Below are positions 44,442 through 47,372 of a DNA stretch of 64,000 nt, in pieces. The stretch is from NCBI RefSeq assembly GCF_025574485.1, contig NZ_JAOBPO010000002.1, positions 2,501 through 66,500 of the forward strand. The letters are read 5' to 3'. The notes beneath the pieces were generated by a model that worked only from the letters and a program-made list of their open reading frames with translations, was not told the origin of the DNA and made no database searches. Numbering within the stretch: the first letter of the stretch is position 1; the number at the start of each line of letters is the position of its first letter. Both the position numbers and the translations under genes were made by a program. The DNA comes from Kordiimonas aquimaris. GTDB taxonomy: Bacteria > Pseudomonadota > Alphaproteobacteria > Sphingomonadales > Kordiimonadaceae.

Positions 44442-44741
44442 ATGAACTTGGAACAAATTACCGAAGAAATGCGCAGCCGTGTTGGCGCTCATTCGCCGAT
44501 ATCTGCCATCATTAAGTTTGATTTTGGGGACGATGGTATCGTGCGCATCGATGGTAAGTCATCACCTACTGTCATCGACAACGAAAATAGCGATGCTGAT
44601 TGTACCGTGAAAGTTTCAATCGAGAACTTTTTGAAAATCGCTCAAGGTGACCTCAATCCGCAAATGGCGTTTATGACTGGTAAGATACGTGTTGAAGGCG
44701 ATATGAGCCTGGCGCTGCAGCTGGGTTCAATTCTCGGTTAA
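44442..44741 (+). CDS. SCP2 sterol-binding domain protein
   Basis: 99 residues, the size of a bare SCP2 domain. Characteristic parts are FDFGDDGIVRIDG, DADCTVKVSIENFLKIAQGDLNPQ and AFMTGKIRVEGDMSLALQL. The fold binds sterols, fatty acyl-CoA or other lipids. There is no signal, so it is cytoplasmic. GGAGATC precedes the ATG. Neighbours with envelope and lipid features suggest lipid handling, which is inference. Confidence 0.92.
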   Translation: MNLEQITEEMRSRVGAHSPISAIIKFDFGDDGIVRIDGKSSPTVIDNENSDADCTVKVSIENFLKIAQGDLNPQMAFMTGKIRVEGDMSLALQLGSILG

Positions 44742-44754
44742 TGATAAGGCCTCG

Positions 44755-45282
44755 ATGATGCTTGATAGATTTCGCTCCATCGTCGTTGGCCTCAGCATGA
44801 TTGTTTTGTTGGGGCTAGTAGGTCTTTACCTGTTTGTTCAGGTTGGTGGTGGAGAAGAGCTGTTCGGAGACAATGAAGGTTCATTGCCTGTTGTTGATTT
44901 CCGTACTTTAGAATATAGCGATGCCGATAACGGTTATCTTTTATGTTCACCTGAATTATGTGAAAAGGCCCAACCAGACGGGCCATCACCAATTTTTCAA
45001 ATGGATGCAGGACGGCTGCGTCAATTGTTTGCAGACTTTTCTGACAGTAATCCAACCATCAAGACCTTCCGTTTTAACCTACCAGCTAGTCAATTTGACT
45101 TTACGGAGCGTTTGCCCGGTGAAACTTTTCCTGCTGTTGTAACGGTTAAGATTATCAGTTTGGATGCTTATACATCTACGGCAGCGATATACAGCAGGCA
45201 GCCGATTGGTGATAGTAACCGCAGTGATCATGTTGAACGTGTATCACGCTGGATAAAAATCCTAACATCACCTATCCGCTAA
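44755..45282 (+). CDS. DUF1499 family membrane-anchored protein
   Basis: 175 residues with an N-terminal anchor (about 10-30). The mature domain fits the alphaproteobacterial DUF1499 pattern: VDFRTLEYSDADNGYLLCSP, a cysteine pair (C63 and C68), PIFQMDAGRLRQLF, and the final STAAIYSRQPIGDSNRSDHVERVSRWI. Function unknown. It starts 13 bp after the SCP2 gene. Confidence 0.82.
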   Translation: MMLDRFRSIVVGLSMIVLLGLVGLYLFVQVGGGEELFGDNEGSLPVVDFRTLEYSDADNGYLLCSPELCEKAQPDGPSPIFQMDAGRLRQLFADFSDSNPTIKTFRFNLPASQFDFTERLPGETFPAVVTVKIISLDAYTSTAAIYSRQPIGDSNRSDHVERVSRWIKILTSPIR

Positions 45283-45295
45283 GCAGGGCTATTAG

Positions 45296-45742
45296 TTAAG
45301 CTGCGGCTTCTATATTTTCAGTAGTATTTTGTTGTTGAAGGTTTGCTGGCCGTGAAGCAAGGCGTACCGCGCCAATGGTCTCGCGTACACGTGCTTGAGT
45401 CTGCGCGTAGCTATCAATTGCGCGGCCAATATTTGAAGGAGCCGGTATGGTTGCTTGTTCTTCTTGCATACGCGTCTCAGCCAATAAAAACTGAACATCT
45501 TTTGATAGCATACCTGACCCAGCTCTAAGGGTAACGGGCTCTTCGTTCAAATTTGAGTCAGATGACTTCGGCGGTAAATTAAGGGCTTGTGAAAAGGCTA
45601 AGCTTGTACCAACTGGGCTAGCGGGACGCACGGCAGCAACGCGTGCGCTACCACTCACACCGGCGGTGAGTATGCTTCCGTTATTGCCTGCGGCAGGACG
45701 TGCGCCTGCTACAACATTTGTTTCTGCCATGATGGCACCCAT
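45296..45742 (-). CDS. Hypothetical protein, alanine/serine-rich
   Basis: 148 residues, no signal or membrane segment. The first half is low-complexity (A, G, S, V, P), and the second half is a probable helix (SKDVQFLLAETRMQEEQ, then IDSYAQTQARVRETI). GGTGGG lies before the ATG at 45742, and a second ATG at 45730 is also possible. I do not recognise a family. It is convergent with the DUF1499 gene and divergent from the histone-tail gene. Confidence 0.6.
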   Translation of the reverse strand: MGAIMAETNVVAGARPAAGNNGSILTAGVSGSARVAAVRPASPVGTSLAFSQALNLPPKSSDSNLNEEPVTLRAGSGMLSKDVQFLLAETRMQEEQATIPAPSNIGRAIDSYAQTQARVRETIGAVRLASRPANLQQQNTTENIEAAA

Positions 45743-46001: not shown

Positions 46002-46835
46002 ATGGATAACAATACACTTGCAATTTATATCAACGAGTTGCGCAACCAGTGCATTAATGTTGAAGCTTCATTTAATCTTTTCAACCAAGCTTTGGCGAGC
46101 CAGGCAGGGCCGGGTATTTTGTTTGCTAGCCAAATGATTATGATGCCAGCAAGTCAGATGTCTGCAATGTTGTGGCCAACACGAGCGCGTGCGCGTGGGC
46201 GCGGCGAGAGCCTGCGGAAAGTACTGCAGCTACCTGAAAAGCATGCACTTAATGATCGTCGCCTTGCTGAGATGTGGGAACGCACAGACGAAAAAACAGA
46301 TGAGTGGATTGCCGGCACTAAAGGCGAACAGGTGTTATTTGACTTTGTTGGAAACCCCAAGGCCATCGGTGATGGGAATACGCCTGATAATTGTATCTTC
46401 CGGGCATATGACCCAACGGCACATATTTTCTATTACCGCGGCGTTGGTTATAACGTGAAGGCACTAGCCGATGCTATGTCAGACGTTGCTGGTCGCGTGA
46501 ACAATGTTTACCGTCAGCTGTTCCCTGATCTTGCAAAAGCTGATGATGAAGCGCGCCAAAAAGCGCTTGAAGCGCAAAAGGCGGCTCAGGCAGCAAGTGC
46601 ACAGGATGCAAATACGAATGCATTTTCTGCTGCGCCTGATGGCGGATCTGTTGCGGGTGAAGAGAAAAAAGCGCCAGCCAAAAAAACGGCACCTAAGAAG
46701 GCTGCTGCAAAGAAACCTGCGGCTAAAGCTGCAGCAAAAAAAGCACCAGCCAAGAAGCCTGCCCCAAAGAAGGCGTCAGCCAAGAAAGCCGCTCCTAAAA
46801 AAGCCGCCGCAAAGAAACCTGCAGCCAAAAAATAA
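46002..46835 (+). CDS. Unknown domain fused to histone-H1-like basic tail
   Basis: 277 residues. Residues 1-170 form an unrecognised, apparently globular domain that contains an arginine patch (RARARGRGE, near 61-69) and aromatic motifs (IFRAYDPTAHIFYYRGVGY). Residues about 175-200 are a charged helix. The last 58 residues (220-277) consist almost only of Ala, Lys and Pro with 23 lysines and no acidic residue after the first two, arranged as AAKK/PAKK/APKK repeats like eukaryotic histone H1 and bacterial H1-like proteins. Binding to DNA or another polyanion is a reasonable inference for the tail. The role of the N-terminal domain is unknown. The ribosome site is weak. Confidence 0.8.
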   Translation: MDNNTLAIYINELRNQCINVEASFNLFNQALASQAGPGILFASQMIMMPASQMSAMLWPTRARARGRGESLRKVLQLPEKHALNDRRLAEMWERTDEKTDEWIAGTKGEQVLFDFVGNPKAIGDGNTPDNCIFRAYDPTAHIFYYRGVGYNVKALADAMSDVAGRVNNVYRQLFPDLAKADDEARQKALEAQKAAQAASAQDANTNAFSAAPDGGSVAGEEKKAPAKKTAPKKAAAKKPAAKAAAKKAPAKKPAPKKASAKKAAPKKAAAKKPAAKK

Positions 46836-47006: not shown

Positions 47007-47372
47007 ATGAAAACATATGTAAAGACTGCAGCCGCGGTGTTTTTGTGGGCGACATCGTCTACGCTTTCACCTGTTATAGCAGCAGATTGCGGTGAGCAGC
47101 CATTGGATATGCCAAAAATTCCAACAGGCGAAGCTTTAACGGCAGCTACTATTCGCACGGCCCGTGATGAAGTGCTCGCATACTCGGACAAAGTTGACGC
47201 ATACATTGCGTGCATGGATCAGAACGGGCTTAAGGTTGCTGCGTTTATGACGAAAGAGCAAAAAGCACGCCGGCAAGACGATTTGTCTGATTTGCATAAC
47301 GAGCGTCGGGATTTGCAGTTGGCGTTGAACGAGGCTATTCGTGAATTCCGCCGATCGCGTCAAAGTCGTTAA
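47007..47372 (+). CDS. Small exported helical protein, unknown function
   Basis: 121 residues with a signal peptide ending near residue 26 (VIAA). The mature part has two cysteines (one near its start, one in YIACMDQNG) that may form a disulphide. It is otherwise helical and charged, ending in a basic stretch (REFRRSRQSR). I recognise no family. GTGGAGTGACG precedes the ATG. A terminator follows. Confidence 0.75.
   Translation: MKTYVKTAAAVFLWATSSTLSPVIAADCGEQPLDMPKIPTGEALTAATIRTARDEVLAYSDKVDAYIACMDQNGLKVAAFMTKEQKARRQDDLSDLHNERRDLQLALNEAIREFRRSRQSR

Follow-up and report, generated by a model that had tools for sequence, protein, structure and literature searches.

It was found that positions 46002 to 46835 of the window, the 64,000-nucleotide stretch of Kordiimonas aquimaris DNA analysed here, hold a gene whose product joins a conserved helical domain to a tail resembling histone H1. 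The features of the gene and two genes upstream are as follows.

44442-44741, plus strand: SCP2 sterol-transfer-like protein, upstream neighbour (locus comparison)
44755-45282, plus strand: 175-residue protein without Pfam match (homologue in cluster c19)
46002-46835, plus strand: whole gene, 277 residues, ATG to TAA
46002-46535, plus strand: conserved helical domain, residues 1-178 (AlphaFold2 model and full-length profile match to a phage/plasmid family)
46182-46217, plus strand: conserved arginine patch, residues 61-72, RARARGRGESLR (alignment of 60 orthologue rows)
46248-46295, plus strand: degenerate R-[ND]-x-x-E-H site of relatives, residues 83-98, LNDRRLAEMWERTDEK (A89 in place of R, R94 in place of H)
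46524-46658, plus strand: residues 175-219, helix 175-199 in the model and a variable Ala/Gln-rich linker (model; orthologue sequences)
46659-46832, plus strand: H1-like tail, residues 220-277, 23 lysines in 58 residues (composition; weak HC2 match)

In 55 of 75 distinct loci, an SCP2 gene precedes the gene and shares its strand; in several relatives, it flanks the cluster of a gene transfer agent (GTA). In the Iodidimonas-group loci L093, L096, and L097, a homologue of the 175-residue protein (c19) is encoded upstream of the GTA cluster. Two further neighbours have no Pfam match: a low-complexity ORF of 148 residues, which lies upstream on the minus strand (45296-45742) and is conserved in 18 of 75 loci, and a 121-residue protein with a signal-peptide-like start, judged by eye (47007-47372, plus strand), which is the downstream neighbour in 29 of 75 loci. 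A promoter scan of the window gave 4 against 2.0 expected; this is near chance and does not show a promoter of the gene's own.

The earlier note, made from the sequence of the window, had described a domain of no recognised kind fused to an H1-like tail. The fusion is real, and its count of lysines in the last 58 residues is exact; they are accompanied by 23 alanines and 8 prolines and form 11 Lys-Lys pairs. Among the 42 window ORFs of at least 150 residues, the next-highest lysine count per 58-residue stretch is 12 (mean 2.5, standard deviation 2.0). All four alanine codons (8, 7, 5, and 3 times) and both lysine codons (14 and 9 times) are used in the tail, and its DNA is a loose repeat, with 76% matches for a 72-nucleotide unit and 68% for a 30-nucleotide unit. 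Since the codon use is mixed and the DNA repeat is only loose, an artefact of plain repeat slippage was ruled out. The tail shares its Ala/Pro/Lys composition with Hc2 (PF07382, NF038052) and with Burkholderia-type H1-like proteins. However, the likeness to Hc1/Hc2 is one of composition only, since the scores are far below the curated cut-offs: 16.7 bits against 40 for HC2 (PF07382, Pfam) and 13.4 bits against 135 for the H1-like NF038052 (NCBIfam).

The N-terminal part was modelled with confidence by AlphaFold2 (residues 1-200 with 60 orthologues; pLDDT 94.6, pTM 0.85). Helices are predicted at 3-32, 36-57, 62-75, 86-93, 95-105, 152-173, and 175-199, and strands at 134-137, 142-145, and 148-151. 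The aromatic motif pointed out earlier, HIFYYRGVGY, corresponds to the predicted beta-hairpin formed by these strands (134-151). The arginine patch is likewise real and conserved: R61 and R72 are each found in 59 of 60 rows, and R67 in all 60 and also in seven of seven wider relatives. In the same alignment (A2; near-copies and duplicates from one and the same organism occur among its 60 orthologue rows), E12, N15, Q16, D96, D114, and R134 are invariant (60/60), and H11 is present in 59 rows, the sole exception being the window protein with its asparagine.

That the N-terminal part belongs to no described family, as the earlier note had it, was confirmed at the sequence level. Searches of Pfam, NCBIfam, and PHROG with the protein and the domain gave no standout match but only weak ones (HC2 for the tail and Barstar at E 0.12, a Barstar-like identity being dropped for that value), and PDB sequences gave no standout match to the protein, the domain, or its relatives. 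Foldseek searches of the PDB with models of the window domain and of the relative L155 returned nothing under E 0.001, and VIA-align of the window domain model returned helical bundles up to Z 7.3, unrelated ones among them.

The domain is nevertheless no orphan. Residues 1-178 belong over their full length to an unnamed family of phage, prophage, and plasmid proteins. With the window domain as query, tblastn found proteins encoded on plasmids of Thiodictyon (E 2e-4) and Enterobacter (E 6e-3). The Thiodictyon protein in turn matches plasmid proteins of Alteromonas, Tritonibacter, Enterobacter, and Rhodococcus, and also Gordonia phages including Madeline, whose gp37 has 188 residues. A fold search against viral models gave a sole match under 0.001, an uncharacterised 188-residue protein of Gordonia phage Madeline (E 2.5e-4, probability 1.00, TM 0.60, 19% identity). 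Since organism and length agree, the two Madeline records are very probably the same protein. A tblastn search of phages with two orthologues gave E 2 or worse. In hhalign, the domain matches seven relatives (A3) at 99.6% (E 3e-24, 164 columns) and 21 IMG/VR relatives (A4) at 99.9% (E 2e-37, 176 columns). In the reverse direction, the profiles of the relatives find the window gene in its own genome (E 4e-19 for the seven rows of A3 and 2e-29 for A4). The family is patchy: four of its eight matches among 398 genomes of the phylum fall outside this order. Madeline gp37 (QDH47640.1), WP_016495505.1 of the Enterobacter plasmid pENT01, and WP_157818074.1 of the Thiodictyon plasmid may be taken as its representatives.

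The Madeline gene is flanked on one side by a metalloprotease gene, with an immunity repressor near, and on the other by an HTH gene, after which comes a tyrosine integrase; ZiggyZoo has a serine integrase close to the family gene. Read by eye, the IMG/VR relative L142 has phage tail genes on either side of it, on the other strand. PADLOC and PHROGs gave no convincing match for the relatives. As a separate observation, the undescribed proteins of L138 (2875-3441, Madeline gp37), L139 (2911-3402), and L140 (1375-1941) carry R-[ND]-x-x-E-H and are encoded near integrase and immunity-repressor genes; they are candidate phage-borne RNases or exclusion proteins.

All seven relatives in A3 share R-[ND]-x-x-E-H-x-D, with R, E, H, and D each in 7/7; A3 was collected by tblastn, and its phage matches align around the motif. 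The motif was also present in all three examined of the four A4-profile matches outside the order. The 21/21 of A4 counts for nothing, as the pattern used to collect that set contained the motif. In the window clade, R89 is found in 4 of 60 rows against 7/7 in the wide set, H94 in 25 of 60 against 7/7, and the two together in none of the 60, while D96 is kept in all of them despite the loss of the motif. Both groups have in common, besides full-length homology and the helical layout, E93 (or D), D96, and a scaffold of W58, R67, L83, R134, and G147. The relatives keep the motif, have no AKK tail in those examined, and are patchy and mobile, whereas the window clade, fixed in its families, is without the R/H pair and in most cases bears the tail. 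Since the window clade is a derived branch, the homology stands even though the motif is absent.

The R-[ND]-x-x-E-H of the relatives is the Rx4H pattern of HEPN type, with N or D after R, and the alpha-helical bundle is a further likeness. In the model of L155 (pLDDT 89.9), a short helix closes with R96, and H101 lies ahead of the next one. On the other hand, the window clade lacks the motif, and no standout fold or profile match to HEPN was obtained. Pfam HEPN families gave no match at E up to 1. Against PF05168 and HEPN_AbiU2, hhalign values did not exceed 1% and were no better than those of reversed controls, in a comparison whose positive control (AbiU2 against HEPN itself) reached 0.2% and whose small alignments held some rows of apparently wrong frame. 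With VIA-align, the HEPN entries 6m6u (Z 5.8, 108 aligned, rmsd 3.8), 4nqf (Z 5.4, 113, 5.8), and 5yep (Z 5.0, 109, 4.3) appeared amid unrelated bundles up to the Z value given above; for the L155 model, the top hit was FliS (Z 8.3), with no HEPN-titled entry among the best 50 rows. I therefore use "HEPN-type motif" and not "HEPN protein", membership being unproven. The domain has probably lost the likely active site of its relatives, a statement that rests on the motif because the HEPN fold is unconfirmed. As H94 is kept in 25 of 60 rows, some members could retain partial function.

Orthologues were found in 51 of the 59 genomes searched, the own genome counted and one E = 0.07 match (G053) discarded, which would give 52. 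The gene is present in all 29 genomes of f1 (the Kordiimonadaceae group of the window, e.g. Kordiimonas marina, K. laminariae, and Eilatimonas milleporae), in five of six f2 genomes, in all 16 gp15-bearing genomes outside f5, and in G055. It was not found in f5 (0/6, the G053 match aside), f3 (0/1), and one f2 genome. Named relatives come from Kordiimonas, Eilatimonas, Pseudokordiimonas, Iodidimonas (f6 includes Iodidimonas muriae), Emcibacter, and MAGs (57 loci). In class-wide samples, a profile built from 37 orthologues gave no match outside the own genome (1/385). A single-sequence scan of genome contigs gave 21 pattern matches and no relative. The domain is under strong purifying selection: its dN/dS is 0.016-0.089 in 15 of 17 pairs, GTA-linked and GTA-less alike, the other two being saturated.

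The most informative feature of the gene, one that cannot be seen from the window sequence, is its connection to GTA. In 29 of 76 distinct orthologues, from sister families outside f1 and f2, GTA genes surround the gene, which runs antisense to the tail cluster at the junction of gp13 and gp14. The arrangement is illustrated by one locus.

L125, 2655-12182: GTA-type cluster (Pfam on ten proteins)

The order by Pfam is DUF2793; Phage-tail_3 with Rcc01698_C (gp15); NlpC/P60 (gp14); the gene, on the opposite strand; phiJL001 Gp84_N with BR0599 (gp13); a tail-sheath TIM barrel with DUF2460 (gp12); tape measure; a 97-residue protein without match; GTA-gp10; Phage_tail_2; and gp17. Terminase, portal, protease, and capsid genes come next by eye, gp4 and gp5 were found by tblastn in G030, and the head genes in L171, L172, and L175 were read by eye. 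In the 38 rows examined for orientation, which include near-copies and duplicate records, gp13, gp14, and gp15 are always on the strand opposite the gene, and in 35 of them the stop codon of the gene lies -9 to +22 nucleotides from the gp13 stop codon (the exceptions are L039, L100, and L129). Of the 16 genomes that have both, 14 carry gp15 no more than 3 kb from the gene; the unlinked two are G046, with gp15-like ORFs hundreds of kilobases away, and G048, at a contig edge. In two other families of the order, the same junction is empty, namely in all four f5 clusters fetched and in the f3 cluster, where the gp13 and gp14 matches are 11-60 nucleotides apart and the gene was not detected.

The cluster resembles the head-tail cluster of RcGTA type (PMC10883770), which embeds the gene in the sister families. 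However, the gene is not among the cluster genes described in the available part of that paper, lies on the opposite strand, and is kept where the cluster is absent. GTA_TIM (PF13547) was found in none of 59 genomes; thus, the gp15 of this cluster differs from that of the textbook GTA. It was also observed that gp12 of this order's GTA-type cluster (L125, L171, L172, and L175) is a non-contractile-tail-sheath TIM barrel fused to DUF2460. G046 has two near-equal phage-like regions (C1 2418677-2425164 and 2474268-2480755) with 1184-residue gp15-type ORFs and a DUF2460-only gp12, and these are probably prophages rather than GTAs. In the open-licence literature, no paper was found on a gene transfer agent in Kordiimonas or on a Kordiimonas histone H1-like protein, and, by title, none on this gene among GTA papers with moron/alphaproteobacteria or HEPN. 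For a gene transfer agent in Emcibacter and in the Emcibacterales, one and the same paper was found.

The window gene itself is not within a GTA cluster, its own genome having neither gp15 nor gp12. No gp15 was found in 29 f1 and six f2 genomes, and no gp12 in 25 f1 genomes (four less complete ones being left out) and six f2 genomes. A search for GTA remnants in the window gave no match below 0.1; the matches had E 0.19 or worse and were far from the gene. Thus, the gene has been retained without GTA, in the same chromosomal neighbourhood, in the Kordiimonadaceae, a second family, and an Emcibacteraceae-like subclade. The last of these keeps the small GTA gene c8 together with SCP2 and the gene. 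As a side observation, c8 (about 97-120 residues, membrane-like) is beside the gene after GTA loss in L114-L122, L124, L049, L050, and L091; it was not found in the window or in the Kordiimonadaceae loci searched (E 1e-3). The GTA label changes three times on a quick tree of 82 rows, which carries SH-aLRT support only, has long outgroup branches, and does not give the direction of gain or loss. Eight rows of this tree (L001, L013, L016, L020, L023, L024, L026, and L027) bear the GTA-less label without a flank test, and their genomes have no gp15 match. An age of at least 700 million years is given for the GTA clusters of Alphaproteobacteria, and several lineages are reported to have lost them, according to the part of PMC10883770 available. 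Thus, three GTA losses around a retained gene are the simplest reading.

The tail behaves differently from the domain. By a rule of at least 8 K/R in a 30-residue window and at least two KK after residue 180, an H1-like tail is present in 56 of 76 distinct orthologues and missing in 20; L033 (11 K/R, no KK) is tail-less under this rule. The absence of the tail in orthologues is one half of what the earlier note had said would count against it, and the tail is indeed not a constant part; as it is missing in these 20, it cannot be essential to the role of the domain everywhere. Its state changes 14 times on the same tree, against three for the GTA label. Tail dN exceeds domain dN in all 15 pairs having a tail comparison, the tail alignments being of low complexity and tail dN/dS hence unreliable. 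Thus, constraint acts on the domain, to which the tail is a labile accessory.

How did this gene arise, and what does it do? The remote-homology and structure analysis of the N-terminal part, which the earlier note had proposed, led to a confident model and the phage/plasmid link but to no described family. I consider it probable that the gene is a domesticated phage cargo gene ("moron") whose product is now a non-catalytic, nucleic-acid-tethered binding protein, such as an RNA- or DNA-bound adaptor or silencer. The marks of a moron are seen, namely a position on the opposite strand among phage structural genes (gp13/gp14) and an empty junction in f5 and f3. An ancestor would have received the gene as independently transcribed cargo in a GTA or its phage progenitor. 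The enzymatic site would then have decayed, while the domain may have kept a conserved binding surface (E12, N15, Q16, W58, R61, R67, R72, D96, D114, R134, and G147). Most lineages would have gained the AKK-rich tail, which may hold the domain non-specifically on DNA or RNA. HEPN members without the motif have been proposed as non-catalytic nucleic-acid binders in the portion of PMC3710099 available. The window protein most likely works as a tethered binder. The earlier note had offered a nucleoid protein, an anchor tied to DNA, or a polyanion-binding enzyme; tethering to the nucleoid or a polyanion remains the best guess, the enzyme is unlikely for the window protein because the Rx4H motif of the relatives is lost, and the anchor is weakened in its PHA form.

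An enzyme would need another active site, for instance H11/E12 with arginines, and the tail would concentrate it on nucleic acid. The near-invariant H11 and the invariant E12, N15, Q16, R67, D96, D114, and R134 are consistent with this, and alternative histidines are described for AbiV and AF0298-like HEPN in the text of PMC3710099 that was available; yet the window protein itself has asparagine at position 11 and the canonical R and H are never paired in the clade, so an active nuclease or other enzyme seems improbable. A plain host nucleoid protein of H1 type, whose domain merely dimerises and whose phage/GTA history is incidental, would fit the tail composition and the weak HC2 matches, but it is the domain that is constrained and the tail that is labile (14 changes, and the higher dN in all 15 pairs); this is rather unlikely, though it deserves some weight. 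PhaM and PhaF carry lysine-rich tails of AAKP/AKK type, and their layout of a domain followed by such a tail is that of the window protein. PhaM ties PHB granules to the nucleoid (PMC3556143, in the part available). A PHA-granule-to-nucleoid anchor, with the domain binding PHA synthase or the granule and the tail the nucleoid, would also agree with an own genome that has a PHA synthase and no Phasin_2 match. However, ten of 29 f1 genomes, all with the gene, have a weak PhaC_N match or none instead of a full-length one, which weakens the idea, and nine of these ten genes have the tail; in f2, full-length PhaC_N is found in none of six genomes, yet the gene is in five. The gene thus persists without PHA synthase, and its domain is related to phage and plasmid proteins and shows no relation to phasins, which makes such an anchor very improbable.

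The precise, order-wide placement inside the GTA tail cluster, the antisense orientation, which could set up mutual exclusion with GTA expression, and the H1-like tail would suit a dedicated GTA part, either a regulator or a DNA-compacting component of the particles. Against this, the gene is kept under purifying selection in 29/29 f1 and 5/6 f2 genomes without gp15, and 9 of 29 GTA-linked orthologues have no tail, and 36 of 47 others have one. A GTA-dedicated role is thus doubtful, and a lambda-type DNA-compacting part of GTA particles was rejected since the gene is kept without GTA. There is also a slim chance that the gene first served a phage in defence or immunity, was captured along with the ancestral GTA, and then became a control protein bound to the nucleoid. 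The antisense unit between gp13 and gp14 would oppose GTA late-gene expression, GTA expression would silence the gene, and the gene would help decide which cells turn GTA producers; after GTA loss it would guard the nucleoid against phage or foreign DNA or RNA. A defence origin is plausible by the example of Tha, a prophage-borne HEPN defence (PMC11087260, as far as its available text goes), an example that is not evidence for the window protein.

Under the favoured moron reading, the gene would offer a dated example of how a protein of mobile elements turned into a fixed host gene. Such domestication is a known kind of event. The stages are all extant: motif-bearing phage and plasmid relatives, GTA-embedded genes, empty junctions, and three GTA-less lineages. 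The relatives form an undescribed protein family without a Pfam match, with a possible RNase motif, encoded beside phage integrase and immunity genes. Should the gene act to restrain GTA or phage, it would count as a control gene carried by a GTA.
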